Assembly: GCA_021737695.1 (NCBI GenBank)
Contig: JAIPDL010000013.1
Coordinates: forward strand, 1-58,637
Reading direction: 5' to 3'
Source: Desulfotignum sp.
GTDB lineage: Bacteria; Desulfobacterota; Desulfobacteria; Desulfobacterales; Desulfobacteraceae
Length of the DNA: 58,637 nt
In this document: one piece after another, positions 25,810 through 44,115 of the stretch
Layout of the letters: every line of letters starts with the position of its first letter
Numbering within the stretch: position 1 is the stretch's first letter
Made by a program: the position numbers and the translations under genes
Notes under the pieces: generated by a model
The model's database searches: none
What the model was told of the DNA's origin: nothing
The model's input: the letters and a program-made list of their open reading frames with translations, nothing else

Positions 25810-26985
25810 ATGCCGCCTTGTGTCACCATCGGGCTTGAAAATCTGAAAAACGGGCTTACATCAGAATTCAAAAACCGTCGTCTCGGCCTGCTTGCCAACC
25901 CCGCCTCAGTGGATTTTCGATTCCGTCATGCTGTCCAGGTGATCCAGGATCTGTTCCCCGGCCGGCTGACCACACTTTTTTCTCCCCAGCATGGATTTTA
26001 TGCAGAAAAACAAGACAATATGATCGAATCCCCCCATACCAGAGATCCGGAACTGGGCATCCCCATCTACAGCCTGTACAGCCACACCCGGATTCCCACG
26101 ACACAGATGTTTGATAATCTGGATACGCTGATCGTGGATATTCAGGATGTGGGGACCCGTGTTTATACCTTTATCTATACCATATCCTATTGTATGGAAC
26201 TGGCGGCCCGAACCGGTAAATCAGTGATCATTCTGGATCGTCCCAATCCCATCGGCGGCACACGGGTGGAAGGCAATGTTTTAAAACCGGAATGTGCGTC
26301 ATTTGTGGGCCGGTTTCCCATTCCCATGCGCCACGGCATGACGGTCGGAGAAATCTGCCGATATTTCAATCAGGCATGTCAGATCGGATGCGATCTGACC
26401 GTGGTGCCCATGTCCGGATGGAAACGCAACATGTACTGGCGTGACACCGGGAGGACATGGATTCTTCCCTCGCCCAATCTGCCCACACCGTTGTCGTGCA
26501 TGGTTTACCCCGGTCAGGTGATTTTTGAAGGAACCAATATCAGTGAAGGCCGCGGCACCACTTTGCCCTTTGAGTACTTCGGGGCCCCGTTCATGGACAC
26601 GGCGGCCATGGCCCCGATATTAAACCGGGATGTGGCAGGCGCCTGTTTCAGACCCGTGTATTTTCAGCCGACTTCGGGCAAATGGCAGGGTCAGGTTTGC
26701 AAAGGATTTCATATCCATGTCACCGACAAAACGGTCTTTAAATCCTATGCTGCATCCCTGCTTGCGTTACAACTGATCATCAAGTGTCATCCGGATGATT
26801 TTGAATTCAAGCCGCCCCCGTATGAGTATGAATATGAGCGCCTTCCCATGGACCTGATTTTAGGAGATGCGGCCATTCGCACCGATCTGTGCGCCATGAC
26901 AGACATCCGGAAAATCAAGGCCCGGTGGCTGCCGGAACTGGAGACATTCATCACCGAATCACAGGCCTGTTATCTGTATGACTAA
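25810..26985 (+). CDS. namZ: NamZ-like exo-beta-N-acetylmuramidase (DUF1343)
   Basis: A 391-residue DUF1343 protein (GH171). Members such as B. subtilis NamZ release MurNAc from the non-reducing end of MurNAc-GlcNAc chains. Recognisable blocks are RLGLLANPASVD, LFSPQHGFY, DIQDVGTRVYTFIYT, VIILDRPNPIGG, RHGMTVGEI and PSPNLPTPLSCMVYPGQVIFEGTNISEGRGTT. There is no signal peptide, so the enzyme should act in the cytoplasm on imported muropeptides rather than at the wall. ATG 25810 has GGAG six bases upstream; a TTG at 25798 is also in frame but lies over that site. With the MurU-AmgK-like fusion at 30243 and Mpl at 42724 it would form a peptidoglycan salvage route. Confidence 0.88.
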   Translation: MPPCVTIGLENLKNGLTSEFKNRRLGLLANPASVDFRFRHAVQVIQDLFPGRLTTLFSPQHGFYAEKQDNMIESPHTRDPELGIPIYSLYSHTRIPTTQMFDNLDTLIVDIQDVGTRVYTFIYTISYCMELAARTGKSVIILDRPNPIGGTRVEGNVLKPECASFVGRFPIPMRHGMTVGEICRYFNQACQIGCDLTVVPMSGWKRNMYWRDTGRTWILPSPNLPTPLSCMVYPGQVIFEGTNISEGRGTTLPFEYFGAPFMDTAAMAPILNRDVAGACFRPVYFQPTSGKWQGQVCKGFHIHVTDKTVFKSYAASLLALQLIIKCHPDDFEFKPPPYEYEYERLPMDLILGDAAIRTDLCAMTDIRKIKARWLPELETFITESQACYLYD

Positions 26986-27023
26986 CCAATATCTTTCAAT
27001 TTGAACGGGCTTTGAACAAACAT

Positions 27024-27053
27024 AAAAAGGGCCGGTGTAACACTGGCCCTTTT
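27024..27053. terminator. Bidirectional terminator between converging genes
   Basis: AAAAAGGGCC...GTGT and ACAC...GGCCCTTTT form a stem with one mismatch around a short loop, with A-rich and T-rich flanks. It can end transcripts of the namZ-like gene from the left and of the small membrane protein gene from the right. Confidence 0.8.
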
Positions 27054-27097
27054 CGTATACAAATACTTTGAATCGGTTCTATGTAATAACCGGTTGC

Positions 27098-27355
27098 TTA
27101 ATTTTTTTTCAGATCGTTCAATTCTTTTTCCAGTTCAGCGATTCTTGATTTGTCATCTGCAGGGGCATCTTTACCTTCTTTGTTCTTCCAGGAATCCTTG
27201 AGTTCATCAAACCCCAGATACAGTGCAAGCCCGCCGCCCAGCAACAGTACAGGGGGAATACATCCGGCCAGAAGGTTCAAAAAATGACCAAACCATACTG
27301 CCAGTCCGACCACACCGAGAAGCACAGCAATTGCACCGCCGATCAACGTTTTCAT
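27098..27355 (-). CDS. Small two-helix membrane protein, MamI-like
   Basis: An 85-residue protein. Two hydrophobic helices lie at about 3-24 (LIGGAIAVLLGVVGLAVWF) and 27-46 (LLAGCIPPVLLLGGGLALYLG), joined by a very short turn, then a charged tail ending in a coiled-coil-like SRIAELEKELNDLKKN. The pattern (short N-terminus, Gly-rich first helix ending in WF/W, turn, second helix with a Pro and Gly-rich middle) closely recalls magnetosome protein MamI. No other magnetosome gene is present, so it may simply be a relative of that fold. The frame is open to 27463, but GGAGG eight bases before ATG 27355 fixes the start. A weak TTGACA-type promoter lies near 27420. Confidence 0.75.
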   Translation of the reverse strand: MKTLIGGAIAVLLGVVGLAVWFGHFLNLLAGCIPPVLLLGGGLALYLGFDELKDSWKNKEGKDAPADDKSRIAELEKELNDLKKN

Positions 27356-27505
27356 AAATAATTCCTCCTTGTTTTTTTTCACCACCCAAAAATGGTAACA
27401 CAACAAAAAAAGCTTACTTGTCAATAGATTCTGGAAAATAGCACAGACACATTGATTTATCAAGGCTATTTTGGCATGGGCGCGTGCCGGTTTTCAACTA
27501 TCATA

Positions 27506-27534
27506 TTGCCTTTAAAGGTCAGGTTTGATAATAA
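27506..27534 (+). promoter_or_regulatory. Promoter of the plsB-dapB cluster
   Basis: TTGCCT (27506-27511), 17 bases and TAATAA (27529-27534), starting transcription about 45 bases before the plsB ATG. Confidence 0.5.
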
Positions 27535-27584: not shown

Positions 27585-30233
27585 ATGCACCTTTTCCAGT
27601 TTTTCAAAACCCTGATCCCCAGGACCAGGGCCAGAATACGCTGTACCATTGATTATCTGCTGGGAGATACATTCGATTATTTTACCAATCTTTACCCGGG
27701 CAACCACAGTTGTATCACCCGAAAAATATTGAGCCGCCTGATACGAAAAGTCAATCTGGATGATCATAACCTGGAAAAAATCAATTCGTTAGACAAAACC
27801 GCCTGTATTATATATGCCAGCAAAAACAAACGGTTGTTTGATTTTCTATATTTTCACACCCGGCTCAAAGCACTGGATCTGCCCTATCCGGAACTGGGGT
27901 TTGATCTGCATTTCTTTTTTCTGCTGCCGGTGAAGCGGTTGTTCCGGATCTGGCTGTCTCATCTGGATTATTTTTTCCATCATTTTTCGTTTAAGGATTT
28001 TTACAAATCCGGATATGCGTTCCAGGAACTGTTTTCAGGAAAATCCGGATTTGTCCACCTGATTGAAGAAGATGATTTCTATAACCGGTTTATCCGTGCC
28101 ACGCCTGATCCGCTGTACCATCTGATCGAATATCAAAAGCATATGAAGCGGCCGGTGATCATCATTCCGGAAGATATCATCTATGTGACCAAACCCATGC
28201 ACAAAAATCCGGGCTTAGGGGAAATTCTGTTCGGGACCCATGAAAAACCCGGATGGTTGAAGCGGATGACGATCCTGCTGCGCCAACCGGAAAAGATCCG
28301 GGTGGAACTGGCCCGCCCGGTCAATCTTAAGGAATTTCTGGCCAGACCGGAAATTGAACGTCTGGATTCGGAATTTCAGACCCACCGATTGAGAAGCTTT
28401 CTGGTGGATATCCTGAACCGCCAGAGAAAAAGCATTACCGGACCGGTTCTCAAGTCCCGCCAGGAAATCACTGAAGATATCCTGACCCGCCAGTCCCTCC
28501 GGGAATTTCTGGCGGATTATGCCGCAAAAAACAACATTTCTTTGAAAAAAACCAACAAAAAAGCCGCGTCCTATATCAATGAAATTGCTGCCAATTACAA
28601 CCTGCGGATCATCAACTTAGGCAACTGGATTTTGACCTGGATTTTCAAAAACATTTTTGAAGGCCTGGTGGTGGATCAGAAACAGATCAACCGGATGCGG
28701 GAGAAATACACGGAAGCGCCGTTGATTCTGGTGCCCTGCCATAAAAGCCACTTAGACTATCTGCTGCTGCCCTATGTCATGTTCAGAAACAACATGCCCT
28801 GCCCCCATATTGCGGCCGGCAAAAACTTGTCCTTCTGGCCGTTAGGGCCGCTGTTCAGGGGCGGCGGCGCATTTTTTCTCAGGCGTACCTTTAAAGGGGC
28901 GACCCTGTATACCAAAATTTTTGCCGCGTACCTGGAAAAGTTGTTATACGAAGGATTTAATATTAAAATTTTCGTCGAGGGCGGTCGGAGCCGCACCGGC
29001 AAACTGCTGACTCCCCGGCCGGGGGGTATGGGCATGATCATTAAGGCGTATCTGAACGGGGCCTGCGACAATCTGCATTTTGTGCCTATTTTTGTGGGGT
29101 ATGACCGCGTTCTGGAAGAAGATGCCTATCTCAAGGAGATCGAAGGCGGCAGTAAAAGCCCGGAAACCCTGAAAGGATTGATCAACACCCGCAAATTTCT
29201 GAAAAAAAAATATGGCAAAGTCTATATCCGATTTGATGATCCCATTTCCATCAAAGACTACATTCACCAGACACAAATGGATCCTGCCCGGGCAACGGAT
29301 CGGGAATTCATGGATTTTGTCAAAAAATTCAGTTATAAACTGATGTCCGCCATCAACAAACAGGCGGTGGCAACCCCCCATGGCATCATTGCCAGCGCCA
29401 TTTTAAACAGTCCGAAAAACAGTTTTTCCAAAGGACAGATGATCGAACGGGCCAACACGTATCTCAACATTCTGATGAACGACAAAGTGGAGCTGTCGGA
29501 AACGTTGCTCCTGGATCTGGACAATACCTTCAACACGGTGATTCATAATTTTCTGTCCAGAAATTTCATGGAACTGGTGGATGAGGACGAAGAAGAGATT
29601 ACCGACGATACCTATTTCATCGTTAAGCATAACAAACGGGCCATACTGGATTATTACAAAAATTCAGTGATCTCTTTTTTTATTCCAGCCGCTTTCACAG
29701 CCGTGGCCATTTTAGAGGTGGACCGGTTCAAGTTTGCATTGCCCGACCTGGTGCGAAGGTACCGGTTTCTGGAAAAAATCTTTCACGATGAATTTTTCAA
29801 TGACACGGAGATCACCTGTGAAGAGCATATCTCCAACTGTATCAAAGGATTCATCAATGAAGGCATTCTGGTACCGGATCCCACCGACATGGACACGCTG
29901 AACCTGACATCTTTAGGATTGCGCAAACTCAAATGGTTTGCCGCATTCACGCTGCCTTTTCTGGAATCCTATAAAACCGCGCTGCTATACTTTGAAAAAG
30001 AACATAAAGCGCTTTCCCAGGATGAAAAAGAACTGGCCAAAAAAATTCATTCCCACGGGGTCCGGTTGTACAAACGCAAACAAGTGTCCCTGAAAGAATC
30101 AATGTCTTTGATCAATTACAGAAATGCGGCCCGATTTTTTTCCAGGAACAAGATTAACGGATCTGAAGACCAGATTCAGATCGATTACTTTAAACAGATC
30201 ATTTCCCGGCTGATCCGGGTGATCGCTTCTTAA
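27585..30233 (+). CDS. plsB: Glycerol-3-phosphate acyltransferase, PlsB type
   Basis: An 882-residue membrane-associated enzyme adding the first acyl chain to glycerol-3-phosphate. PCHKSHLDYLLLPY contains the catalytic HX4D (His386, Asp391); GGAFFLRRTFKG, IFVEGGRSRTGK (about residue 463) and VPIFVGYDRV are the other acyltransferase blocks. The length fits PlsB (E. coli 807 residues) with some extension. Many bacteria instead use PlsX/PlsY. AAGGGAAA precedes the ATG. The nucleotidyltransferase/kinase fusion follows nine bases after the stop. A second PlsB/PlsC-like acyltransferase, fused to a hydrolase, lies at 4860-7028. Confidence 0.93.
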   Translation: MHLFQFFKTLIPRTRARIRCTIDYLLGDTFDYFTNLYPGNHSCITRKILSRLIRKVNLDDHNLEKINSLDKTACIIYASKNKRLFDFLYFHTRLKALDLPYPELGFDLHFFFLLPVKRLFRIWLSHLDYFFHHFSFKDFYKSGYAFQELFSGKSGFVHLIEEDDFYNRFIRATPDPLYHLIEYQKHMKRPVIIIPEDIIYVTKPMHKNPGLGEILFGTHEKPGWLKRMTILLRQPEKIRVELARPVNLKEFLARPEIERLDSEFQTHRLRSFLVDILNRQRKSITGPVLKSRQEITEDILTRQSLREFLADYAAKNNISLKKTNKKAASYINEIAANYNLRIINLGNWILTWIFKNIFEGLVVDQKQINRMREKYTEAPLILVPCHKSHLDYLLLPYVMFRNNMPCPHIAAGKNLSFWPLGPLFRGGGAFFLRRTFKGATLYTKIFAAYLEKLLYEGFNIKIFVEGGRSRTGKLLTPRPGGMGMIIKAYLNGACDNLHFVPIFVGYDRVLEEDAYLKEIEGGSKSPETLKGLINTRKFLKKKYGKVYIRFDDPISIKDYIHQTQMDPARATDREFMDFVKKFSYKLMSAINKQAVATPHGIIASAILNSPKNSFSKGQMIERANTYLNILMNDKVELSETLLLDLDNTFNTVIHNFLSRNFMELVDEDEEEITDDTYFIVKHNKRAILDYYKNSVISFFIPAAFTAVAILEVDRFKFALPDLVRRYRFLEKIFHDEFFNDTEITCEEHISNCIKGFINEGILVPDPTDMDTLNLTSLGLRKLKWFAAFTLPFLESYKTALLYFEKEHKALSQDEKELAKKIHSHGVRLYKRKQVSLKESMSLINYRNAARFFSRNKINGSEDQIQIDYFKQIISRLIRVIAS

Positions 30234-30242
30234 AGAAACGTC

Positions 30243-31925
30243 ATGAACGCATTGATTCTGGCCGCCGGATTCGGGACCCGGCTGTTGCCCTATACCCGGA
30301 CTCTGCCCAAACCGCTTTTCACTCTAAGCGGAAAACCGATTTTGCAGCACACCATCGAGCGGTTAATCCAAAACGGATGCCGACGGATTCTGATCAACAC
30401 CCACCATCTGTCCCATCAGATCACCGATTTTCTGGATCATCTCAATGTTCAACCGGATGTGGATATTCAGGAAGTTTATGAGCCTTTGATTCTGGATACC
30501 GGCGGGGCTATCGCCAATGTCAGGGATGTCATGAGAACAGACAGTTTTTTTGTAATCAACAGTGATGTGGTCACTGATATCGACCTGAGTTCGGTCTGGC
30601 GGTTTCATCTGACTCATCAGGCCCTGGCCACGCTGGTGCTCCATGATCGTGCCGCGTACAACCAAGTGACCATGGATTCAGACGCCTGGATCACCGGATT
30701 TCGTACCCCCGGCCAGGGCCTGGCATTCACCGGCATCCAGGTGCTGTCTCCCAAAATCTTTGACCATCTGCCCGAAAACCGCGTTTTTTCCAGTATTGCC
30801 TGGTATGCGCAATTGTGTCCGGCCAAAAAGATCAAAGCATATGTGGCACCGAACCTGTTCTGGGAAGAGATCGGTACCGTTGATGCCTATTCACGAACGG
30901 CCCGGCTGTGGATCAGCGCCAGAGCCCTTGGATCTTCTGTGAGACACGTGGATATCCATGCGTTGTCCGGAGACGGTTCTGATCGGTCCTGGTTCCGGGC
31001 TAAATCAAATTCAAACTTGCCGTCCTTGGGCAGCGCTCCCGGATCGGTGGTGGTCTGCGACCACGGCATCTGCCTGCCGGAAACAGACCGGCGTGCCCAG
31101 GTGGATGCCTTTGTGTCCATTGGGAATCATTTGTATCAAAACGGCATCTGTGTTCCGCAAATTCTGGCTTATGATGCATTCAGCGGTGTAGTGGCGGTCC
31201 AGGATCTGGGTAACCTTCATCTGGCCGATGTGGTGGTGGCTCAGATGCCGAACCTGTCTCAAATCACCGGCCTGTATGAACAAGTCATTGATCAGTTGAT
31301 TTTGTTTTCCCGAAAAGGCGCACAAGGGTTTGACCTGTCCTGGACCTGCCAGACTCCTTATTATTCCAGGACGCTGATCCTGGAAAACGAATGCCAATAT
31401 TTTGTGGAACGATTTGTTCAGGGCTATCTGGGCAAACATATTGATTTTAATGCCCTGGCAGATGATTTTTATTTCATTGCTGATCAGGCATTGACCGGCG
31501 GGGAAAACGGTCTGATGCACCGGGACTGCCAGTCAAAAAATATCATGATCAAAAATGGGGCCCCGTTTTTCATCGATTTTCAAGCCGCCCGGATCGGCCC
31601 GCTGCAATATGATCTGGCTTCCCTGTTACTGGATCCCTATGTGGCTCTGCCGAAATCCGTTCAAAAAAACCTGCTGGTCTATGCCATGGACCGGCTGAAC
31701 CTGATATCCCCGGACCGTCGACAGCAGTTTAGACACAACTTTGACTATTGCTCCCTGACCCGGAACCTGCAGATTCTCGGCGCGTTCGCCTATTTGAGCC
31801 GGATCAAGGGAAAATTATGGTTTGAAACCTATATTCCGACGGCAGTGGCATCTTTGACACACTGGATGCGCACCCAGGCACCTGATGCCGTCCGCCGCCT
31901 CAAAAAACTGATTCTGAGCCTGTAA
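30243..31925 (+). CDS. MurU-AmgK-like fusion: sugar-1-P nucleotidyltransferase + sugar kinase
   Basis: A 560-residue two-enzyme fusion. Residues 1 to about 225 form a nucleotidyltransferase: LILAAGFGTRL with PKPL (nucleotide loop and Lys), DTGGAI, INSDVV (metal Asp), LAFTGIQVLSP and LFWEEIGT. This matches MurU, which makes UDP-MurNAc from MurNAc-1-phosphate and UTP. Residues about 240-560 form an APH-type kinase: SGDGSDRSWFR, VAVQDLG, MHRDCQSKNIM (catalytic Asp428) and PFFIDFQAARIGPLQYDLASLLLD, close to AmgK, the anomeric MurNAc/GlcNAc kinase. In Pseudomonas these are two separate genes. A mannose- or heptose-phosphate role cannot be excluded. It lies between plsB and dapB, and 3.3 kb from the namZ-like gene. 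Confidence 0.85.
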   Translation: MNALILAAGFGTRLLPYTRTLPKPLFTLSGKPILQHTIERLIQNGCRRILINTHHLSHQITDFLDHLNVQPDVDIQEVYEPLILDTGGAIANVRDVMRTDSFFVINSDVVTDIDLSSVWRFHLTHQALATLVLHDRAAYNQVTMDSDAWITGFRTPGQGLAFTGIQVLSPKIFDHLPENRVFSSIAWYAQLCPAKKIKAYVAPNLFWEEIGTVDAYSRTARLWISARALGSSVRHVDIHALSGDGSDRSWFRAKSNSNLPSLGSAPGSVVVCDHGICLPETDRRAQVDAFVSIGNHLYQNGICVPQILAYDAFSGVVAVQDLGNLHLADVVVAQMPNLSQITGLYEQVIDQLILFSRKGAQGFDLSWTCQTPYYSRTLILENECQYFVERFVQGYLGKHIDFNALADDFYFIADQALTGGENGLMHRDCQSKNIMIKNGAPFFIDFQAARIGPLQYDLASLLLDPYVALPKSVQKNLLVYAMDRLNLISPDRRQQFRHNFDYCSLTRNLQILGAFAYLSRIKGKLWFETYIPTAVASLTHWMRTQAPDAVRRLKKLILSL

Positions 31926-31936: not shown

Positions 31937-32773
31937 ATGGATGATATTTTTGTCATGATCAACGGACTGCCCGGGAATGTGGCGGCAACCATGGCCCGGG
32001 CCGCATTGTCCGATCCCCGGTTTCAACTCATCCCGGCATCTCTGACCGGACCTGATATCAGTGAAACATCCTTTCAAGTGGATAAAGTTTCCGTCACACT
32101 GATAAAACCCGATGAACGGGAGACGGCTGTGTCAAAGATCCGGCAGGAGTACAGCGATTTCATTGCCATTGACTACACCCACCCGTCCGCCGTCAATGCC
32201 AATGCCCGGTTTTATATCCAGCAACACATTCCTTTTGTGATGGGCACCACGGGCGGTGACAGAACCGCTTTGAAAACAGACGTGTCCAAAGGAGACATCC
32301 CGGCGGTGATCGCCCCCAACATGGCCAAACAGATCGTAGGCTTCCAGGCCATGATGGCCTTTGCCGCGGATCAGTTTCCGGGCTTGTTTGCCGGGTATTC
32401 CCTTGAAATCAAAGAAAGTCACCAGCAGGGAAAAGCCGACACATCCGGCACAGCCAAAGCCATGGTGGGATATTTCAACCGCTTGGGATTGGATTTTAAA
32501 CCGGAACAGATTCAACAGATCCGTGATCCAAAAGTACAGAAAACCCAGTGGCAAATTCCGGAACAGTATCTGTCCGGTCATGGCTGGCATACTTACACTC
32601 TGACCGCTTCGGATGGAACGGCTTTGTTTGAATTCAAACACAATATCAACGGCCGCCAGGTCTATGTGGAAGGCACGTTTGATGCGGTCTTGTTCTTGAA
32701 AAAACAGATCACCAATCCCAGGGATTCAAAACGGCTGTTCACCATGATGGATGTTTTGACCCCTCAAGAGTAG
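31937..32773 (+). CDS. dapB: 4-hydroxy-tetrahydrodipicolinate reductase, plant-like type
   Basis: A 278-residue reductase of the diaminopimelate/lysine pathway. The N-terminal Rossmann part opens with FVMINGLPGNVA, DYTHPSAV is the cofactor-binding strand, VMGTTGGDR is the conserved nucleotide loop and ESHQQGKADTSGTAKAM is the substrate and catalytic block. The ESHQ...K-DTSGT form resembles the plant-type enzyme more than E. coli DapB (HHRHKVDAPSGT). AAGGAG lies before the ATG, eleven bases after the kinase fusion. Its product supplies meso-DAP for the peptidoglycan that the neighbouring genes appear to recycle. Confidence 0.9.
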   Translation: MDDIFVMINGLPGNVAATMARAALSDPRFQLIPASLTGPDISETSFQVDKVSVTLIKPDERETAVSKIRQEYSDFIAIDYTHPSAVNANARFYIQQHIPFVMGTTGGDRTALKTDVSKGDIPAVIAPNMAKQIVGFQAMMAFAADQFPGLFAGYSLEIKESHQQGKADTSGTAKAMVGYFNRLGLDFKPEQIQQIRDPKVQKTQWQIPEQYLSGHGWHTYTLTASDGTALFEFKHNINGRQVYVEGTFDAVLFLKKQITNPRDSKRLFTMMDVLTPQE

Positions 32774-34392: not shown

Positions 34393-35646
34393 TTAAGATT
34401 CCCGGGCCTCGGGCCGACGGTTCAGTTCCAGTTCCTGGGGGAATACCGGCAGATACCGGTATGCCACCGCAATCAGGATGATGCCGTAAGCCACCGGCAG
34501 AATGGTAGTGGCCACTTCCTGCCAGGACGGGATATACAGGGCCCAGGTATCAAAAGGCATCACCGGGACCGCCATAATCTGAAGCACCATGACCCACCGG
34601 TTGATACACACGCCGATGACCGCCAGAACAATGGCAATCAGTCTGAAGGTGGGATTTTCCCGGGTTGTTTTAGTGATCAGCAGAAGGCCAGGAATCACGC
34701 CGCAGACAATCACTTCCAACACCAGTATCCAATACCCGTAAAATCCGTTGCTGGTATAAAAATGACTGAGCTCAAACCCCAGCCCCGGGGCAGTGATCTT
34801 GGCCCAGTAAAGCGTATCAATGATTTTGGCGATCATATAGGTGAAAATCATCCAGCCGGAGATTTTGGCCAGCAGATGAACCACATTGTCCTTGACCAGT
34901 TTTTTGCCGGTCACCGCCTCGGTGACCCGGGTGACCAGCAGGGTGAAGCAGGGACCGAAAGCGGCGGCCGACCAGGTGAACAGAAAAAACGACCAGGGCC
35001 AGATCAACAACCCTTCCCGGAATGCAAACGGCCGGCCGTACATGACACCGGCCACCCCGCCCAAAGACCCCTGGTGGAAAAAGGACAAAAACGCACCGGT
35101 AGCGGCAAAAATCGCCATCACGCCATGCATGTTATGGGCCAGATGATGGAAAAAAGGCACTTTGTTAAGCTGACGGTTTTCCAGGATATTGGGAATGAAC
35201 TCAATGGTCAGCACCGCAAAATAGCAGGACAGACAGAACGCCACTTCCGTGAGCATGGAATGCACATTGGCATGCCAGAAAATAAACCATCCCCGCAACG
35301 GCTGACCGATATCGATCGCCAGAATCAGCAACGCCGAGCTGTAGCAGATAAATCCGATGATCACGGCAAAGTTGATAATATTTTTCAGTTCATCAATTTT
35401 AAAAATATATTTGAGCAATCCGGTAAAAAAAGCGCCGCCTCCTACGGCGATCACTGCCAGGTCCGCCCAGATCCACAGAGCAAACCCGTAATAATCGTTC
35501 ATGTTGGTCTGGTTCAACCCCTTGAACCAGCACAGCAGCATGGCATAGACGCCCCAGAGCAGGACAGCCCCCACAATGGCAATCCCCAGCATGAATTTGG
35601 GGAAGGAACACCGTTTTGCACCTTCAGGTATTAATGCAGCATCCAT
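34393..35646 (-). CDS. qrcD: Qrc menaquinone reductase, NrfD-type membrane subunit
   Basis: A 417-residue NrfD/PsrC-family protein with about ten membrane helices; it binds menaquinone and passes electrons to or from the periplasmic subunits. Typical blocks are LLCWFKGLNQTNMNDYYGFALWIWADLAVIAVGGGAFF near the N-terminus, INFAVIIGFICYSSALLILAIDIGQPLRGW and FAFREGLLIWPWSFFLF. The frame opens with TTG at 35652, but ATG 35646 has AGGAG nine bases upstream. It follows qrcC, completing the QrcABCD order, and is followed by the small membrane protein. Confidence 0.92.
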   Translation of the reverse strand: MDAALIPEGAKRCSFPKFMLGIAIVGAVLLWGVYAMLLCWFKGLNQTNMNDYYGFALWIWADLAVIAVGGGAFFTGLLKYIFKIDELKNIINFAVIIGFICYSSALLILAIDIGQPLRGWFIFWHANVHSMLTEVAFCLSCYFAVLTIEFIPNILENRQLNKVPFFHHLAHNMHGVMAIFAATGAFLSFFHQGSLGGVAGVMYGRPFAFREGLLIWPWSFFLFTWSAAAFGPCFTLLVTRVTEAVTGKKLVKDNVVHLLAKISGWMIFTYMIAKIIDTLYWAKITAPGLGFELSHFYTSNGFYGYWILVLEVIVCGVIPGLLLITKTTRENPTFRLIAIVLAVIGVCINRWVMVLQIMAVPVMPFDTWALYIPSWQEVATTILPVAYGIILIAVAYRYLPVFPQELELNRRPEARES

Positions 35647-35679
35647 ATTCAATTACTCCTCACATCGATTTTGGATTTT

Positions 35680-36537
35680 CTATTCATGGGAAGCCGACCC
35701 ATAGACGTTCTTCACTTTATCCCATTCCCCATCCAGATAATGGTCTCCCAGCTTACGGACCCATTCCCGTTCAGACATGTAATATACTTTGGGATTGGTC
35801 CCGAGCCGTTCCAGCAGACGGAACACTTTGGGATTTCTGGATTTTCCCACCACATCCGGATTCAGCGGATCCGGATGTGGATCCGGTTTGACAATCTGAT
35901 GAACCTTGTGAGAGGGATTGTTCAAATCACCGAAAACAATGGCCCCGGCAGGACACGCTGTAGTACAGGCGGTCTGATAATCCGCTTCCGGAATTTCATC
36001 CGATCCGCTGGCATAGGCTTTTTCCCGGGCCAGCTGATACCGGTGATAACAAAAACTGCATTTTTCCACCACCCCCCGCATCCGCGGGGACACATTGGGG
36101 CTCAGATATTTTTCCATGCCTTCGGGCCATACCGGATCCCACCAGTTAAAATACCGGGCATGATACGGGCAGGCGGCCATGCAGTACCGGCATCCAAAAC
36201 ACCTGGTGTAAATCTGGGAAACTATCCCGGTATCATATCCATAATCGGTAGCCGTAGCCGGACAGACCGACACGCAGGGAGAATGCCCGTGGTCTCCTTT
36301 TCCGCCGCAGTGCTGACAGGGTCTGGGCAGAAATGCCACCTCAGTATCTGGAAACGGTTTGTTATTGGTCAGTCTGTAAACCCGCATCCAGGTGATGCTG
36401 TCCTTTTTGTCGGACTCATCCTCCTTGAACGGCACATTGTTCTCAGACATGCAGGATACCGCGCAGGTACCGCACCCGGTGCATTTGTCCAGATCGATCA
36501 CCATGCCGTATTTGTGTGCTTTTTTATCGTGTATCAT
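35680..36537 (-). CDS. qrcC: Qrc menaquinone reductase, Fe-S subunit
   Basis: A 285-residue periplasmic Fe-S protein related to PsrB/NrfC. Four [4Fe-4S] groups are visible: CTGCGTCAVSC (Cys19, 22, 25, 29), CQHCGGKGDHGHSPCVSVCP, CFGCRYCMAACP and CSFCYH with the later CTTACP. It links the molybdopterin-family subunit to the NrfD-type membrane protein. It has no signal peptide of its own; such subunits are exported with the twin-arginine partner. AGAGG precedes the ATG. Confidence 0.93.
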   Translation of the reverse strand: MIHDKKAHKYGMVIDLDKCTGCGTCAVSCMSENNVPFKEDESDKKDSITWMRVYRLTNNKPFPDTEVAFLPRPCQHCGGKGDHGHSPCVSVCPATATDYGYDTGIVSQIYTRCFGCRYCMAACPYHARYFNWWDPVWPEGMEKYLSPNVSPRMRGVVEKCSFCYHRYQLAREKAYASGSDEIPEADYQTACTTACPAGAIVFGDLNNPSHKVHQIVKPDPHPDPLNPDVVGKSRNPKVFRLLERLGTNPKVYYMSEREWVRKLGDHYLDGEWDKVKNVYGSASHE

Positions 36538-36569
36538 CAGAACCTCTTTGAAAATTTGTCCACATCAGT

Positions 36570-38699
36570 TTAGGCCTTTGAAATTCCGGCTTTGATGCAA
36601 AAAGCGGCATCCATGCCTGAATCCGGCTCGATTTTCGGTGAAATCAATGTATTGACATTCACCCCTTTGCCTGACACATATCTGTTGTCCAGCGTGTGTC
36701 CAAGGCCTTTAACCATACCGATGACACCGGGCATAATCCCGTCATTGAAATGCACCCGCACCGGGACGGATCCCGCAGGAGTCGTCAACGTGGCAAATCC
36801 ACCGTCTTTCAGATTTTTAGCGGATTGGGGATTTATTTCCACAAACATGTCCGTTCCCTTGAGAATCCGATCGGACACGATTTTGATGGCAAAGGGAGAG
36901 GGTGCCGGCACGGTGGGAGGTACCCGGAAATTGTCAATGGGGATCAGGGTGAATTCCAGAGCGCCTGCCGGTTTCACCGTCTCCGGATTTTCTGCCAGAA
37001 AACCGAAATCCGTTTTCACGGATCCCGCTGGCAGATTTTTTGAAAGCACCACATGGCCTTTCCGGACCAAAGGCCCCCAGATTCTGGCGGTCACCTGTTC
37101 CAGGCACGCATCATAACTGTTCCAGGCAAAACTTTTGGCCATGTCACCGCCCAGAGCCCTGGCTATTCCAATCACCACATCTCCGGGACTGCGGGTGTTG
37201 AACACCGGCTTTACCATGGGTTTTGAAAGTCCCACCACGGTGGCGGCCAGGCCGGCTTTTGAAGGCACGTCTTCCATACGTTCCATAAACGTGGATACCG
37301 GCAGAATCACATCCGATGCCATGGCTGTTTCATCCATGAACGAAGTCACACAGACCTTGAACGGAATTTTTTCAAATGCGGCCCGGATCCGGGACGGATC
37401 ATTCAGGGCAAAACAGGGATTGGCATTGTATACCAGCAACGCCTTTACCGGCGACTCACCCGATTTATCAATCCGGGTTACCAGTTCCTGAACCGAACCT
37501 GCCAGCGGAGCGGAACCCGCACCTTTCAACGCCACGGTATCCTGCACCGGATCCGGAAAGTTCAGGTATTTTGGAAGCGGTTTGACAAACGTCCCGCCTT
37601 GTTTGTTGACATTGCCGCTCAGGCAGTTCAGCGTATGAATCGCTGCAAATTCCTTGAGATTCTGGGCCCCTTCGCCGCGCCCTTTTCCCGGCAGAGCCAC
37701 AGGCATTTTTGCCTTGGCAAATGCGACGGCGGTTTTCTGGATGTCTGACGCGCTGATGCCGGTGATTCCGGCAACTTTGTCCAGGGGATATTCTTTTTGT
37801 ACCATGGCAGTGAACCGCATGAATCCGCCGGAAAACCCCTGAGCAAACCCCGGATCAAACAGGTTTTCTTTGAGCAGAACCGCGCACATGCCCATGGCCA
37901 GGTCCGCTTCAGTGCCCGGGTTGATGGGAATCCATCGGTCGGCACTGGCGGCCGTATTGGAAAGCCGGGGTTCGATCTGAACCAGGGTAGATTCTCTTTG
38001 TCTTCGGGTGCCCATGGCCTGAATACATGCCACCGGAGACCCCCATCCGTCAATCAGCCCGGCACCAAAACTTAAGATAAAATCGGAGTGATCGATATCA
38101 AATCCCAGGGTATATGCATCGCCGTGCAGGGTTTTTGCCGTCCGGATCAGCCAGGATTCAAGATCCGGCATGGTCAGGTAATTGGGAGAACCGAATGCGG
38201 CCATAAAATGTTTGAACAGGCCCGGGACCGACCCCTGATCCGAACCACTGATACAGGCCAGGGTTTCCGGATTCTGATCATTGCGAAGTTCACCCAGTCT
38301 GGCCGCCACCATGGTGAAAGCGTCATCCCATGAGATGGGCACAAACCGGTTATTGACTTTTTTCATAGGTGATTTCACCCGGCTGGGATCATACAGGTAT
38401 TGAAGTCCGGCAATCCCATGCAAACAGACCCCGCCGTTGTTCACCGGATAGGGGTCCAGGCCTTCAATCTTTACCGGCCGGCCGTCAATTTTTCGCACTG
38501 AAATACCACAGGCACCGGGGCACAAATGGCATACGGTGCGGTCATAAGATACTTCTCCATCAGGCGGAACCGGTGTCCAGGGCCAGTTCTGGGTCCAGAT
38601 GGAAAAATCATCCGTGAGTTTGGCTCCGACAGGGGAGATGGCAATGCCTGCAACTGCGCCGATTCCCAATCCCAAGAAGCTTCGTCTGTCAACTTTCAT
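36570..38699 (-). CDS. qrcB: Qrc menaquinone reductase, molybdopterin-family subunit
   Basis: A 709-residue member of the DMSO-reductase family. DRRSFLGLG at residues 4-12 followed by a hydrophobic stretch is a twin-arginine export signal. Cys57, Cys60, Cys64 and Cys92 (CHLCPGAC ... GGVC) bind one [4Fe-4S] cluster. The D. vulgaris homologue is reported to lack molybdenum and to act as an electron-transfer subunit; I cannot judge cofactor content here. An in-frame ATG at 38708 overlaps the GAGG site, so ATG 38699, nine bases from it, is the start. In sulfate reducers Qrc takes electrons from periplasmic hydrogenase/formate dehydrogenase via cytochrome c3 and reduces menaquinone. Confidence 0.93.
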   Translation of the reverse strand: MKVDRRSFLGLGIGAVAGIAISPVGAKLTDDFSIWTQNWPWTPVPPDGEVSYDRTVCHLCPGACGISVRKIDGRPVKIEGLDPYPVNNGGVCLHGIAGLQYLYDPSRVKSPMKKVNNRFVPISWDDAFTMVAARLGELRNDQNPETLACISGSDQGSVPGLFKHFMAAFGSPNYLTMPDLESWLIRTAKTLHGDAYTLGFDIDHSDFILSFGAGLIDGWGSPVACIQAMGTRRQRESTLVQIEPRLSNTAASADRWIPINPGTEADLAMGMCAVLLKENLFDPGFAQGFSGGFMRFTAMVQKEYPLDKVAGITGISASDIQKTAVAFAKAKMPVALPGKGRGEGAQNLKEFAAIHTLNCLSGNVNKQGGTFVKPLPKYLNFPDPVQDTVALKGAGSAPLAGSVQELVTRIDKSGESPVKALLVYNANPCFALNDPSRIRAAFEKIPFKVCVTSFMDETAMASDVILPVSTFMERMEDVPSKAGLAATVVGLSKPMVKPVFNTRSPGDVVIGIARALGGDMAKSFAWNSYDACLEQVTARIWGPLVRKGHVVLSKNLPAGSVKTDFGFLAENPETVKPAGALEFTLIPIDNFRVPPTVPAPSPFAIKIVSDRILKGTDMFVEINPQSAKNLKDGGFATLTTPAGSVPVRVHFNDGIMPGVIGMVKGLGHTLDNRYVSGKGVNVNTLISPKIEPDSGMDAAFCIKAGISKA

Positions 38700-38740
38700 A
38701 TGTAGCATCCTCTATAAAGTTTTCAATTCTTGTGTATGGT

Positions 38741-39412
38741 CTATTTGTGGCACTGGAAGCAATAGCCTTTATGGCCGGTTTCCTTCTCATGACACACCGC
38801 GCAGTCATTCATTTTCATGCGGTCCCAGGGATTTTTCTTGATGCCCCAGATATTTTTTCCCCATATATCCCGGCTGTAGCCGGTAAGGCGGTTTTCCTCA
38901 TAGTGCCGGGACGTCCTGGTTTCCTCGATGGGGCCGTGGCAGGATTTACAGTCCATACCTGCGGCATTGATATGGGCGGCATGGGAAAAGAAAACGCAAT
39001 CCGGCTGCCGGGCATACACGTACCAGGGAACCTCCTGTTCTTTTGCCACATATTCAGCTGCAAATATGGCCTCATCTTTTGTATCGCCCATGGGCTCATC
39101 CGTGTGGCAGTCCAGACAGGATTCGGTCTTGGGAATCCCTGAAAACGTGCCGTCTTCCCGGAGATAATGGCAGGATTCGCAGTCCCCGGTTTCCTCCACA
39201 TGGAGCACGTGGTCGAAATTAAAAGGTTGCTCGTGTTTGGAATAAAGCAGTTTGGGGAACAGGAGCCAGCCGGACAGGAAGCATATCAGAAATGCCACAA
39301 TAAAAAAAATGACTCCCAGCCCCAGGCCTGTGTCATTTTTCGGGTCACCGGCAGTGCCTGCTGTCGCACCATCCATGGAACCGTGTTCAGTTTTGTTTTC
39401 TATTTCACTCAT
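38741..39412 (-). CDS. qrcA: Qrc menaquinone reductase, multihaem cytochrome c subunit
   Basis: A 223-residue membrane-anchored cytochrome. A single helix lies at about 29-52; the rest is periplasmic. Five canonical CXXCH sites are at residues 78-82, 99-103, 155-159, 204-208 and 218-222. Between the second and third there is Cys139-VFFS-His144, a non-canonical CX4H that may be a leftover or atypical sixth site; the D. vulgaris subunit is described as hexahaem. The frame is open upstream to 39535, but ATG 39412 (GGATGGGG upstream) gives the sensible short cytoplasmic N-terminus. It receives electrons from cytochrome c3. It is the first gene after the qrc promoter. Confidence 0.92.
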   Translation of the reverse strand: MSEIENKTEHGSMDGATAGTAGDPKNDTGLGLGVIFFIVAFLICFLSGWLLFPKLLYSKHEQPFNFDHVLHVEETGDCESCHYLREDGTFSGIPKTESCLDCHTDEPMGDTKDEAIFAAEYVAKEQEVPWYVYARQPDCVFFSHAAHINAAGMDCKSCHGPIEETRTSRHYEENRLTGYSRDIWGKNIWGIKKNPWDRMKMNDCAVCHEKETGHKGYCFQCHK

Positions 39413-39545
39413 GAAAACCCCATCCATGTTAAAAAGTTGATGTTTACTATACCCTTTTATCCAGGCACTTGCCGGGACATATTCTTTTGCAGCCAGTGGG
39501 TCCCACTGGATACAATTGGTGTTCACGCAGCACAATTCGCGTTAA

Positions 39546-39673: not shown

Positions 39674-40507
39674 TCAGGCGTAGCTGTGAAGTCCGGACAA
39701 CAGAAAATTGACCCCGAAATAGGTGAATAACACTGCCACGAAACCGGTGATGGACACCAGCGCCAGATTGCGGCCATGCCAGCCCCGCATCAGCCGCAGA
39801 TGAAGAAAAATGGCATACACGAACCAGGTGATCAAAGACCAGGTTTCTTTGGGGTCCCAGGACCAGTATTTGCCCCAGGCGGAGTTGGCCCAGACGGCTC
39901 CTGTGATGATGCCGATGGTCAAAAAAAGAAACCCGAACACCACCATCTGGTAGGTGAGTTCATCAATGACCTCTCCATCCGGCAATCGTGAAAAAATAGA
40001 ATTTTGATCCGGTTGCCCGGGTTTCACGTAATAGGTAAGGCTGAGTCCGAAAGCCAGGGCAAAGCCGGCATACCCCAGAAAACAGGTCACCACATGGGCA
40101 ATGAGCCAGTTGCTTTTCAACGCCGGGATCAGCGGATTGATCTTGGCGCTCATGCTCGGGTCAAACGAGGCATAGGCAATGGCCAGAAAAATCAAGGGCG
40201 ATACAAACACCCCGAACCCCTGTTCCTTGTATTTGATCTCCACATACAGATACAATGCGGTCATGGTCCAGGAAAAAAAGATCAGGGATTCATACATGTT
40301 TGAAAACGGGGCTCGGCCGAACCCCATCTGGTAAGATTCCATCCACCTTAGTCCGATCCCGACCGTATTCAGAACCAGTCCAAGTACCAGCACATAAAAG
40401 CCGGCGGTCCCAAGCAGTTTTTTCTTAAAAGCAAACGCCCCGATATAACACACCATTGCCAGGCCGTACAAAAAAGTAGTCGAAGACAACGCAAACGCAC
40501 TGTTCAT
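39674..40507 (-). CDS. ccsA: Cytochrome c biogenesis protein CcsA (ResC)
   Basis: A 277-residue polytopic membrane protein of system II cytochrome c maturation. The haem-handling WGKYWSWDPKETWSLITWFVYA is the tryptophan-rich WWD signature; about eight membrane helices surround it. It works with ResB to carry haem across the membrane and attach it to CXXCH sites. It begins two bases after the resB stop, so the pair is coupled. The qrcA gene just downstream encodes a cytochrome that would need this system. Confidence 0.93.
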   Translation of the reverse strand: MNSAFALSSTTFLYGLAMVCYIGAFAFKKKLLGTAGFYVLVLGLVLNTVGIGLRWMESYQMGFGRAPFSNMYESLIFFSWTMTALYLYVEIKYKEQGFGVFVSPLIFLAIAYASFDPSMSAKINPLIPALKSNWLIAHVVTCFLGYAGFALAFGLSLTYYVKPGQPDQNSIFSRLPDGEVIDELTYQMVVFGFLFLTIGIITGAVWANSAWGKYWSWDPKETWSLITWFVYAIFLHLRLMRGWHGRNLALVSITGFVAVLFTYFGVNFLLSGLHSYA

Positions 40508-40509
40508 TT

Positions 40510-41886
40510 TTATTCACCCTTGTTTAATTGATTTTCCAGGCGGGTCGCCATTTGTTTGAGTTTCAGTGTCATGCTCCGGCTGTTGCGGCTGGATTTGCCG
40601 GACAAAATCACCCGGCTCTGTCCGGCACCCCGGGGTGCCAGTGTGAGAAGAAACGATTGATGGGACATGAAAAAAGTGACCCAGCATCCCAGGATCATCA
40701 AAATAAACCCGGCATATACATACCATACGCCCGGATCTTTGGTGACCTGAAGCCCGGTATAATACCGTTTCTCAAAATCGGTCACAACAAAAGCGAACCG
40801 GCCCTTTCGCATCTTGTCAAACGTGGGGAACTGTATGGGCATCCCGATCTGAAAACCGGTTTCCCCGGTCAGGGTCACCAGTCCGAAAAAGGTTTCTCCC
40901 AGATCATGGTTTTGGAACTCAAAATGGGGAAGAAACCCCTGAAGCGTGAACTGTCCTGCCCCGTCCGGCAAATCAATGGTTTCACCGATCCGGATGTCGC
41001 GAATGATTTCAGCGCCACTTTGATTGTCAACCATCTGCATCGTCACCGTGTCGGGTGCGGCCGTGCCGTAAGAAGATTGAAAAATGTTGATCCCTTTGTA
41101 TCGCAGCGGATGATTGACCCGGATATCGGTGGTCAGGCTTTCTTTTCCGTCTTCAATGATCGTGAGATTTGACCGGAATTCTTCCGGCGCTCCGTTCTCG
41201 TAAAATGACACGTCAAATTCATTGCACCGGATGATGAAATCCAGTGTCATGGGTTCCCTGGTTTTGCTCTCAAACACCCGGCCGGTCTGGGTTCCCTCAT
41301 CGATTCTGACATTGGCTTTGAATCCGAAAACCGCACCGATCAAGGCACCGGCCAGAAGAAGCAGCACACTGGCATGCACCACAAACACCCCTAACCGGGT
41401 CCATCGCCCTTTTTCTGCATAAAGATAAGTGGTCTGGCCATCGGTTTGCCGGGTGACCGGTCCCGCCTGTTTGGCAAGCCAGGCTTCGCAGGGTTCAAGC
41501 AACTGCTTGACCGATGATGTCTTGTCAATGGTCTGACTGGATTTTGATTTCAAATACCGGTTGACATTGAAACGGACCCGGCCCGGAAAAATGGTTTTCC
41601 ATAACAGGGACAGTCGTTCCACGGAACAGACCGTGATGTTGATGCACAAAACCAGCAGCAGCAGCAGAAACCACCAGGCATGATACATGTCATCGATGTC
41701 AAACACCTGAATCAGGTTATAGATCCCTTGTCCGTAAAGATTCACATACTGCTGGGGGGATCCGTTCTGAAGCACCACCGTCCCGATAATTGAGGTTACT
41801 GCCAGCAGAACCAGAATATACACGGTCAGTTTGACGGAACAAAAAAACACCCAGATCTGGCGGGAAATACCGTCTTTATTTTTCAA
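40510..41886 (-). CDS. resB: Cytochrome c biogenesis protein ResB
   Basis: A 458-residue membrane protein, partner of CcsA. Three helices near the N-terminus (WVFFCSVKLTVYILVLLAVTSIIGTVV, AWWFLLLLLVLCINITVC, GVFVVHASVLLLLAGALIGAVF) precede a large periplasmic domain (YKGINIFQSSYG) and a last helix (YVYAGFILMILGCWVTFF). The frame is open to 41946, but no ATG there fits; TTG 41886 has GGAGG six bases upstream and gives MKNKDGISRQIWVFF, the normal ResB opening. I therefore take the TTG. Confidence 0.9.
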   Translation of the reverse strand: MKNKDGISRQIWVFFCSVKLTVYILVLLAVTSIIGTVVLQNGSPQQYVNLYGQGIYNLIQVFDIDDMYHAWWFLLLLLVLCINITVCSVERLSLLWKTIFPGRVRFNVNRYLKSKSSQTIDKTSSVKQLLEPCEAWLAKQAGPVTRQTDGQTTYLYAEKGRWTRLGVFVVHASVLLLLAGALIGAVFGFKANVRIDEGTQTGRVFESKTREPMTLDFIIRCNEFDVSFYENGAPEEFRSNLTIIEDGKESLTTDIRVNHPLRYKGINIFQSSYGTAAPDTVTMQMVDNQSGAEIIRDIRIGETIDLPDGAGQFTLQGFLPHFEFQNHDLGETFFGLVTLTGETGFQIGMPIQFPTFDKMRKGRFAFVVTDFEKRYYTGLQVTKDPGVWYVYAGFILMILGCWVTFFMSHQSFLLTLAPRGAGQSRVILSGKSSRNSRSMTLKLKQMATRLENQLNKGE

Positions 41887-42264
41887 TTCATACCTCCATG
41901 GTAACAACCGGTGCCAAAAGATCCTTTTCCCGGACCAGCCGTGCAAGAGTTTATCCTGGAGAACACCCCTCGGTCATAATCATTGGTGTTGATCATGATC
42001 ATCTGTTTCACAGACCGGTCGGTTATAGCAGAATGTCTCGGTCTGGGCAAAATCTTTTCACAAACATGATTAATTTGTAATGTTCCGGATCCCCTGGGAA
42101 ATGCCGGTGAATCTGTGAACGAATAAAATCGGGTGCTACCGGTAAAGAACGGGTGCGGATCCGTGAAGCCCGGGTATTTACAGGCAAACACCCGGGCCAG
42201 ATACGCGGCAAAATTGCAATCCAGATGAAAAATCGCTTCCCGGGCATGCAGCCGGTTCAGAATA
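41887..42264. other. Gene-free gap between the hemerythrin gene and resB
   Basis: No believable gene is present; a 149-residue minus-strand frame across it is Cys/Pro-rich and has no family features. A perfect 12-base palindrome TGATCATGATCA lies at 41990-42001, about 105 bases before the resB start, and could be an operator. The region probably holds the promoter of resB-ccsA, but no convincing -35/-10 pair was seen. Confidence 0.4.
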
Positions 42265-42705
42265 TCACTGTTTTCTGGATGCGTCTTCAACATACTGGTG
42301 AATGCGTAAAAAAGGCACATACATCGCATCATTGGTCAGGATGTGCTCAATCAGCCAGTCCCGGAGGGAAACGATGGCTTCCAGACTCAGATTGTTGACA
42401 TCTTCTGTAATTTCCCGGCGCAGGCTGAGGGCATTCCGGATGAATCGGCGATGGTATCTGGCGTGTATATCCCGGTCCGGATATTCCCGCTGTCTGAGCA
42501 TTCTCTCTTCTTCTGTAAAATACAGTTTACTATAATCGTTGATGTCCGTAATAATATTGGCAATGGCTTTGGATTCCGCTTTTTTCTGTTTCAAATCAAT
42601 GAGTTCATTAAAAAGGTCGAACATTTTTTTCTGGTGGGCGTCGATCTCTGCCACATCCACACTGAATTCGGACTCCCATTCAACCTTAAGATCGTCTTGT
42701 ATCAT
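42265..42705 (-). CDS. Bacteriohemerythrin with one iron ligand replaced
   Basis: A 146-residue four-helix protein of the hemerythrin family, which binds O2 or NO at a di-iron site. Expected ligands seen are His24 (DAHQKK), Glu66 (FTEEE), His81 and His85 (DIHARYH), His121 and Asp126 (EHILTND). The first His of the HFxxEE motif is Tyr62 (LYFTEEE), so one of seven ligands is missing. The site may still hold iron with Tyr, or work as a mononuclear or sensor site. It lies 18 bases after mpl and probably is the third gene of hemL-mpl. Confidence 0.9.
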   Translation of the reverse strand: MIQDDLKVEWESEFSVDVAEIDAHQKKMFDLFNELIDLKQKKAESKAIANIITDINDYSKLYFTEEERMLRQREYPDRDIHARYHRRFIRNALSLRREITEDVNNLSLEAIVSLRDWLIEHILTNDAMYVPFLRIHQYVEDASRKQ

Positions 42706-42723
42706 CTGTCTCTCCTTGGTATA

Positions 42724-44115
42724 TCATTCAATTGTGTCAAGCAGTCGGATATGGATATTGTCAAATCCGCCATTGGACATGATCAGCACCAGATCGTGGG
42801 GGATCAGCCGGGAAGGCAGAAACGACAGCAGCCCGTTTGTGTCGGAAAAATGATGGGCTTCCACCCCGAGCTTATTGATATCCGACACCAGCTTTTCAGG
42901 GGAAAACCGTTCATTTTCAGGTATATTTTTTTTCACGGCCGGATTGCAGATACACACCATATCCGCTTCGGCAAATGCGGCAGGATACGTGTCCTGGAAA
43001 AACCGGCGCATGGAGGTGTTGGTACGGGGTTCAAACACGGCAATCACCCGGCCCGGATGGTAAAACGGTTTCACTGCCCGGATAGTGGCTGCCACCGCAG
43101 ACGGATGATGGGCAAAATCGTCCATGACCGTGATACCGTTTTTACCCCCCCGGACATCCTGACGGCGCCGGATACCGGAAAACGATGCCATGGCCTGTTT
43201 CACCGTGGCCGGGCTGATTCCCACCGAATGCGCCGCCGCCGCACAGGCCAGAAAATTCATCAGATTGTGATGCCCGGGCAACCGGGTTTCAATTTCATAA
43301 CCTGAATCAGGGCCCTGGATTTGAGCCCGGGTCAAATGGTCCGCCTGAACCATATCCGCATATCTCCAGTCACCGCCAGATCCGTAAAAAACAGGGTTTA
43401 TGTTTTGATCTGCCAGGATATCCATGAGATGGGGACTGTCTTTGCAGGCAATCAGAACACTGGTATCCGCCACTTTTGACACCAGTTGGGCAAACACCGA
43501 CTTGACATGATCCAGATCCTTAAAAATATCGGCATGGTCGAATTCCACACCGGTCATGATCGTGATAAACGGATCATAGTGCATGAATTTGGGACCTTTG
43601 TCAAAAAAGGCGGTATCATATTCATCCCCTTCAATGACCATGAATTCCCCGTTGCCGATCCGGAACCCGGACTGGTAGTCCTTTAAAATCCCGCCGATCA
43701 TGAACCCGGGGTCCAGCCCCGCCACGGTCAGTATATGAGCCATGACCGCCGCGGTCGTGGTTTTGCCATGGGTCCCGGTGATCAGAATGATCTTTTTATC
43801 AGCGGCGATAAACCGGTTCACAGCCTGGGGCATGGACAGATAGGGAATCTGCCTGTGAAGGACCGCGGCAGCTTCAGGATTGTCACGGGTCACGGCATTG
43901 CCGATGATCACCAGATCCGGAGAATGATCCAGATTGACCGGATCAAACCGGTCAAATAACCGAATTTTACTGGCTGCCAGAAAATCGCTCATGGGGGGGT
44001 AAACCTGCTGATCCGAGCCGGTCACTTCATACCCCATCTGCTTGAGCATGCAGGCCAGAGTTCCCATGCCGGTACCACAGGCAGCAATCAGATGTATGCT
44101 GCGAATGTTGGTCAT
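42724..44115 (-). CDS. mpl: UDP-MurNAc:tripeptide ligase Mpl
   Basis: A 463-residue Mur-ligase family enzyme. HLIAACGTGMGTLACMLKQMGYEVTGSD is the UDP-sugar domain with the Mpl-type CGTGM (MurC has IGIGGIGM); ITGTHGKTTTAAV is the ATP loop; EGDEYDTAFFDK and FDHADIF are the central-domain blocks. Mpl joins recycled L-Ala-D-Glu-meso-DAP to UDP-MurNAc, bypassing MurC/D/E. It begins three bases after hemL. It is the last step of the salvage route suggested by the NamZ-like and MurU-AmgK-like genes. Confidence 0.93.
   Translation of the reverse strand: MTNIRSIHLIAACGTGMGTLACMLKQMGYEVTGSDQQVYPPMSDFLAASKIRLFDRFDPVNLDHSPDLVIIGNAVTRDNPEAAAVLHRQIPYLSMPQAVNRFIAADKKIILITGTHGKTTTAAVMAHILTVAGLDPGFMIGGILKDYQSGFRIGNGEFMVIEGDEYDTAFFDKGPKFMHYDPFITIMTGVEFDHADIFKDLDHVKSVFAQLVSKVADTSVLIACKDSPHLMDILADQNINPVFYGSGGDWRYADMVQADHLTRAQIQGPDSGYEIETRLPGHHNLMNFLACAAAAHSVGISPATVKQAMASFSGIRRRQDVRGGKNGITVMDDFAHHPSAVAATIRAVKPFYHPGRVIAVFEPRTNTSMRRFFQDTYPAAFAEADMVCICNPAVKKNIPENERFSPEKLVSDINKLGVEAHHFSDTNGLLSFLPSRLIPHDLVLIMSNGGFDNIHIRLLDTIE

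Follow-up and report, generated by a model that had tools for sequence, protein, structure and literature searches.

In the anabolic recycling of peptidoglycan by Pseudomonas and Caulobacter, AmpG imports N-acetylglucosamine-1,6-anhydro-N-acetylmuramic acid (GlcNAc-anhydroMurNAc) and its peptides, NagZ and AmpD leave anhydroMurNAc, and AnmK, MupP, AmgK and MurU carry this on to uridine diphosphate-N-acetylmuramic acid (UDP-MurNAc), as outlined in passages of PMC5371407 and PMC13046382. AnmK is called conserved in Gram-negative muramic acid recycling in a passage of the former, and PMC7670621 states of Tannerella forsythia that no AnmK is predicted there and that the fate of anhydroMurNAc is still to be explored. 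Here we describe a gene block encoding a NamZ-like protein and a fusion of MurU- and AmgK-like parts in a 58,637-nucleotide stretch from Desulfotignum sp. (Desulfobacterota; Desulfobacterales), positions 1 to 58,637 of the forward strand of contig JAIPDL010000013.1 (assembly GCA_021737695.1), referred to below as the window. NamZ (DUF1343, GH171) is reportedly an exo-muramidase of Bacillus subtilis and Tannerella. We propose, at roughly even odds (about 0.5), that the block is part of an anabolic peptidoglycan recycling pathway without AnmK, in which a cytosolic NamZ yields MurNAc, most likely by hydrolysis of 1,6-anhydroMurNAc. Among the literature matches listed, which did not extend to the founding NamZ papers, there was no account of an AnmK-free NamZ route, and the single NamZ passage in review PMC13204101 deals with the extracellular NamZ of Gram-positives.

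Two types of NamZ and the distribution of AnmK

The NamZ-like protein of the window (25798..26985, + strand) is 395 residues long, and its Pfam matches to NamZ_N (expectation value, E, 1.5e-81) and NamZ_C (E 6e-47) together span residues 30-394; no additional domain was seen in the Pfam scan. Its start codon is either a TTG at 25798 or an ATG at 25810, and because the reading frame begins only two codons upstream of the TTG, there is no space for a signal peptide. A structure search with its AlphaFold2 model (predicted local distance difference test, pLDDT, 95.5) returned the solved Bacteroides proteins 4k05 (template modelling, TM, scores 0.89/0.91) and 4jja (0.78/0.87) and no other match below E 0.001. 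Aligned to the PEHG motif of these two proteins is PQHG in the window protein, with the Gln at position 64. We take the Glu of PEHG to be the proposed catalytic residue of NamZ.

Both motifs recur across the phylum. Among 247 genomes, NamZ was found in 137, all with at least one copy that could be typed (two being fragments, in G217 and G260): the Gln type occurs in 112 genomes, the Glu type in 30 and both in 5. Gln64, Asn74, Val170, Tyr342 and Glu343 are fixed in 107/107 aligned Gln-type copies, Tyr342 and Glu343 also being found in about half of the Glu-type copies, and many further positions are common to both types. A single branch (support 99/93) splits the types in a tree of 84 NamZ proteins (61 Gln, 23 Glu). 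When the residues ahead of the NamZ domain were judged by a crude rule of hydrophobicity, a signal-peptide-like stretch was seen in 1/107 Gln-type versus 14/30 Glu-type proteins. Twelve Glu-type proteins are about 680-850 residues long, with approximately 390-480 residues ahead of the domain (loci L105, L106, L108-L111, L114-L116, L118, L120 and L127); 11 have a signal-peptide-like start and one is truncated.

The changed residue at a probable catalytic position, the missing signal peptide and the frequent company of MurNAc-salvage genes described below might also mean that free muropeptides are not hydrolysed by Gln-type NamZ and that its target is some other MurNAc conjugate, or that it serves the pathway by binding and sensing MurNAc ligands. 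This appears quite improbable to us: 48 columns are invariant among 48 Gln-type sequences (one per family), suggesting that selection maintains an enzyme pocket, and the window protein carries no extra domain visible to Pfam.

AnmK exceeded its cut-off in 25 of the 247 genomes, comprising none of the 112 with Gln-type NamZ and 25 of the 135 others (Fisher's exact test 1.1e-7, uncorrected for kinship). Counted by family label, the Gln type occurs in 50 families and AnmK in 9 among 89, and one family is shared (f66, where the two occur in different genera; P 0.005). Four AnmK matches below the cut-off (E 4e-4 to 1e-3) were dropped from these counts and one in G267, a 37-residue fragment, was included. 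As six Glu-type genomes do have AnmK, the mutual exclusion is peculiar to the Gln type. G122, which has AnmK together with a short NamZ, was rejected as an exception because its NamZ is of the Glu type. MurQ passed its cut-off in 11 of the 247 genomes, all of them with AnmK and none with Gln-type NamZ.

A similar result was obtained for the order, of which 59 genomes were sampled. AnmK was over its cut-off in none of them (one match below it scored 20.3 bits), and the same search was positive in the controls E. coli, Caulobacter, Synechococcus, Deinobacterium and Bacteroides. AmpG was over its cut-off in 51 genomes, including that of the window, and a profile for NagZ-type GH3 proteins matched in 56, with 26 over cut-off. 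Since AmpG and NagZ were found and AnmK was not, the pattern is not one of NamZ in place of NagZ, but one of AmpG and NagZ without AnmK. A first-pass annotation of this DNA had envisaged a route that dispenses with AmpG and NagZ; the order has both, and the missing enzyme is AnmK. The genome search that it suggested for these proteins turned up AmpG in the window's own genome but no NagZ match there, that genome being 88% complete. A route characterised by a lack of NagZ was not adopted, as the congeners G001-G008, G010 and G011 have a match (G009 has fragments and G012 none). MurNAc-GlcNAc, the substrate assumed in the first-pass annotation, is doubtful given the Gln in place of the Glu of two solved family members and the anhydro-muropeptide enzymes encoded nearby.

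Gene company of Gln-type NamZ

The fusion (30243..31925, + strand) joins an N-terminal nucleotidyltransferase (Pfam NTP_transferase, residues 3-218) to a C-terminal sugar kinase of the APH fold (residues 279-464). The top NCBIfam match is MurU for the N-terminal half (E 3e-33, 115.5 bits) and AmgK for the C-terminal half (E 2e-23, 82.9 bits). As both scores are far under the equivalog cut-offs (250 for NF045761 and 550 for NF045759, respectively), the names are given by resemblance. A best match of E <= 1e-50 to the fusion was obtained in 55 of the 59 genomes of the order, and NamZ is matched in 52; G018, G024 and G040, whose weak fusion matches were left out of the count, are without both. 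Where both genes are present (51 genomes), they lie within 7 kb of each other in 39 (largest gap 4.8 kb), 10.5 kb apart in one and on separate contigs of split assemblies in 11. The signal-less NamZ-like protein and the fused MurU-AmgK-like protein of the first-pass annotation are thus both confirmed, and the linkage of the two extends across the order.

Within the phylum, 108 of the 112 genomes with Gln-type NamZ and at least 47 of the 135 others have matches to the MurU/AmgK parts at E <= 1e-25. The latter figure is a lower bound because the query came from a Gln-type genome; G114, for example, has both parts by other searches. For AmpG at E <1e-60, the counts are 74 of the 112 genomes with Gln-type NamZ and 17 of the 25 with AnmK. 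At the stricter AmpG cut-off, 73 genomes are positive: 49 with Gln-type NamZ, 3 with AnmK and 21 with neither.

Flanking genes were scanned at 107 Gln-type loci (48 families) and 30 Glu-type loci, 12 of the latter with flanks of only 1.5 kb. Gln-type flanks contain NagZ in 29 genomes (12 families), AmgK in 19 (16), MurU in 15 (15), Mpl in 13 (6, including the window itself), an AmpD-like Amidase_2 protein in 13 (4) and AmpG in 2. Five of the 29 NagZ loci had contributed to the NagZ profile, and the other profiles were likewise built from loci that they later matched. The flanks of four genomes of the order were picked, and those of G145 widened, on prior knowledge that they contain the genes; with these regions and the window set aside, AmgK is found in 13 genomes (10 families) and MurU in 9 (9). 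At the 30 Glu-type loci, MurU and AmgK were found in one, weak Mur-ligase matches in three and NagZ in none.

Several Gln-type loci contain longer rows of such genes. Within 8 kb, L141 (G074) encodes a C26 peptidase, NamZ, a MurU-AmgK fusion, AmpG, an AmiA-like amidase and a GH3 glycosidase; L154 (G229) has the same set except that a DNA methylase-like gene replaces that for GH3. The row at 4311-12836 of L172 (G084) encodes an Amidase_2-GH3 fusion resembling AmpD-NagZ, NamZ, a GHMP kinase, a Mpl-like ligase, MurU and AmgK, and in L140, L179 and L188, from three families, NagZ, NamZ, MurU and AmgK are consecutive. AmgK- and MurU-like frames come after AnmK in G297, and an AmgK-MurU-like pair faces it from the opposite strand in G114. 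NamZ therefore has the same gene company as AnmK has elsewhere.

These neighbourhoods bear on a second explanation, which was also the view of the first-pass annotation: that Gln-type NamZ is an ordinary exo-beta-N-acetylmuramidase working in the cytosol, where with NagZ it would cut back imported glycan oligomers or MurNAc-GlcNAc, starting at the non-reducing end, and pass MurNAc to the fusion. A namZ-nagZ-amiE gene group is said to exist in B. subtilis, the fold is shared with two solved DUF1343 proteins, many positions are common to both NamZ types and NagZ lies in the fetched flank of 29/107 Gln-type genomes. The AmpG of T. forsythia, moreover, is described in PMC7670621 as also carrying GlcNAc-MurNAc. 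Nonetheless, Gln-type proteins depart from the PEHG motif, and Asn74 is present in every aligned copy of them, and an exo-muramidase would leave unexplained why AnmK is absent alongside the Gln clade in the phylum sample and would leave open who opens anhydroMurNAc where AmpG occurs. Although it is the main rival to ring opening, we regard this explanation as unlikely.

Outside the phylum, contigs of named genomes were scanned with a Gln-type query, and 80 of at least 591 confirmed stretches were kept; with such a query, the scan shows where the Gln type occurs and not its frequency. The motif is PQHG in 79 of the 80, L314 being unread by the motif search. By record title, the kept stretches include genomes of Nitrospirae, Acidobacteria-type and Planctomycetes bacteria, and in Nitrospirae-titled records MurU- or MurU-AmgK-like frames lie directly 3' of NamZ.

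It is conceivable that the fusion makes a different nucleotide sugar, based on mannose, heptose or another sugar, and that NamZ adjoins it by chance. Its MurU and AmgK scores are under the equivalog cut-offs, and it is also matched by mannose-1-phosphate guanylyltransferase (E 3e-28) and HddC (E 4e-21). However, MurU and AmgK rank first for their respective halves, MurU/AmgK-like parts accompany Gln-type NamZ in nearly all genomes of the phylum that have it (108/112), and both the NagZ-NamZ-MurU-AmgK rows of three families and the order of genes in Nitrospirae-titled records speak against chance. A heptose or mannose pathway was rejected as outweighed by these scores and linkages, and we consider it highly improbable.

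The remaining genes of the region are less directly connected to recycling. Between NamZ and the fusion lie a small protein on the opposite strand (27098..27463, -) with a weak MamI-like match (NCBIfam E 1.4e-8; 34.5 bits, not reaching the cut-off of 80), whose family is probably wider than magnetosomes, and a PlsB-like glycerol-3-phosphate acyltransferase (27585..30233, +; Pfam GPAT_C E 5.6e-69), which is kept in the block without an obvious recycling role. The gene for a plant-type dihydrodipicolinate reductase, dapB (31937..32773, +; TIGR02130, 334.8 bits, passing the cut-off of 294.55), starts 11 bases downstream of the fusion and is a biosynthetic gene, not a recycling gene. In 20 syntenic loci of the order, which were fetched because they are linked, the acyltransferase lies between NamZ and the fusion in 20, the MamI-like protein between NamZ and the acyltransferase in 18, and dapB is matched in 17.

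A Mpl-like UDP-MurNAc:tripeptide ligase is encoded next to hemL at 42724..44115 (- strand). It scores 387.6 bits against a TIGR01081 cut-off of 388.7, with murC second (315.6 bits, also under that model's own cut-off in NCBIfam). The first-pass annotation had grouped Mpl and dapB with NamZ and the fusion. Both are present, and dapB is indeed beside the fusion, but Mpl belongs to a separate gene group 11 kb from the fusion on the opposite strand and was matched in none of the 20 syntenic loci, for which reasons a single operon of Mpl and the block was rejected. Mpl-like ligases do lie near Gln-type NamZ in 12 genomes (5 families) besides the window, such that the linkage stands at that level and not for the local block. 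Elsewhere in the window, genes for NrfD-like, FeS, molybdopterin and c7-type cytochrome proteins form a row at 34393-39535 (- strand), presumably resembling the Qrc complex of sulfate reducers, and are followed at 39674-41946 by CcsA/ResB-type cytochrome c assembly genes.

A proposed AnmK-free route and its relation to known systems

If there is no AnmK, the NagZ product can be used further only when something else opens its ring. In the proposed pathway, AmpG would import GlcNAc-anhydroMurNAc and its peptides, and NagZ and an amidase would remove GlcNAc and peptide. Cytosolic Gln-type NamZ would then most likely hydrolyse anhydroMurNAc at its internal 1,6-anhydro beta-glycosidic bond to give free MurNAc, which the kinase half of the fusion would convert to MurNAc-1-phosphate and the nucleotidyltransferase half to UDP-MurNAc; Mpl would rejoin the recycled tripeptide. 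The 1,6-anhydro bond is a beta-glycoside formed within MurNAc itself, and MurNAc is what NamZ proteins recognise; a Gln for Glu replacement would suit a differently placed leaving group. Opening by water would produce MurNAc, on which AmgK acts, and so make MupP unneeded. We infer all of these reactions, the ring opening above all, from gene content and order, the lack of AnmK and MurQ matches over cut-off, the N-terminus, the Gln/Glu difference and the predicted fold. The more specific proposal that Gln-type NamZ replaces AnmK plus MupP, as a third route with kinase-free opening that is used by Desulfobacterota as well as by lineages with Nitrospirae, Acidobacteria and Planctomycetes titles, is tentative, and we give it somewhat less than even odds.

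A number of observations weigh against ring opening by NamZ. First, the activity itself is predicted from sequence and gene context. Second, NagZ near NamZ equally fits a stepwise trimming of glycan chains, and GlcNAc-MurNAc taken up as by the T. forsythia AmpG (in the passage of PMC7670621 noted above) needs no ring opening. Third, AmpG is found at E <1e-60 in just 74/112 Gln-type genomes and over cut-off in 49/112. Conversely, AnmK and Gln-type NamZ are both lacking in 28 of 119 genomes with AmpG (E <1e-60) and in 15 genomes where a MurU and an AmgK part occur together, as two matches or as a single full-length one; these genomes are real gaps in the picture, and several fit neither the ring-opening scheme nor that of a cytosolic exo-muramidase. 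Fourth, a weak AnmK match (79 bits) was found in a Planctomycetaceae genome with Gln-type NamZ, one of 15 kept genomes searched (11 with Nitrospirae, Acidobacteria or Planctomycetes titles, one TA06, one other and two Desulfobacterota isolates). Fifth, 14 of the 30 Glu-type proteins likewise have no detected signal peptide (2 further ones are truncated), and we therefore did not equate the short form with the Gln type. Finally, midpoint rooting places 8 Gln-type rows with the Glu type and the tree root is undefined, so that we make no claim as to which NamZ form is older or that the Glu was lost in the Gln clade.

Two of the 15 genomes with MurU and AmgK parts but neither AnmK nor Gln-type NamZ were inspected, G214 and G261 (L355 and L356). 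In both, MurU/AmgK-like genes adjoin SpoIID-like genes, being fused in G214, and MurNAc would be supplied there in some further way.

If the ring-opening proposal is true, a glycosidase relative may do the work of AnmK in a large number of lineages, and an entire clade of NamZ would gain a function. Compared with the catabolic AnmK-MurQ recycling of E. coli, the same imported anhydromuropeptides would be handled, but AnmK and MurQ are over cut-off in 0/112 Gln-type genomes. With the NamZ of B. subtilis and Tannerella, the window protein shares its Pfam family and many conserved positions, and its model has the fold of the Bacteroides DUF1343 protein 4k05; it differs in lacking a signal peptide, in having neighbours of the cytosolic recycling type and in the PQHG that replaces the PEHG of 4k05 and 4jja. 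The closest likeness is to the anabolic AmpG-NagZ-AmpD-AnmK-MupP-AmgK-MurU pathway of Pseudomonas and Caulobacter, as AmpG and NagZ-, AmgK-, MurU- and Mpl-like genes are present or linked here and the predicted product is UDP-MurNAc. In contrast to that pathway, there is no AnmK over cut-off, MupP would be unnecessary, MurU and AmgK are fused in this bacterial order, and NamZ stands beside MurU/AmgK where other genomes have AnmK.

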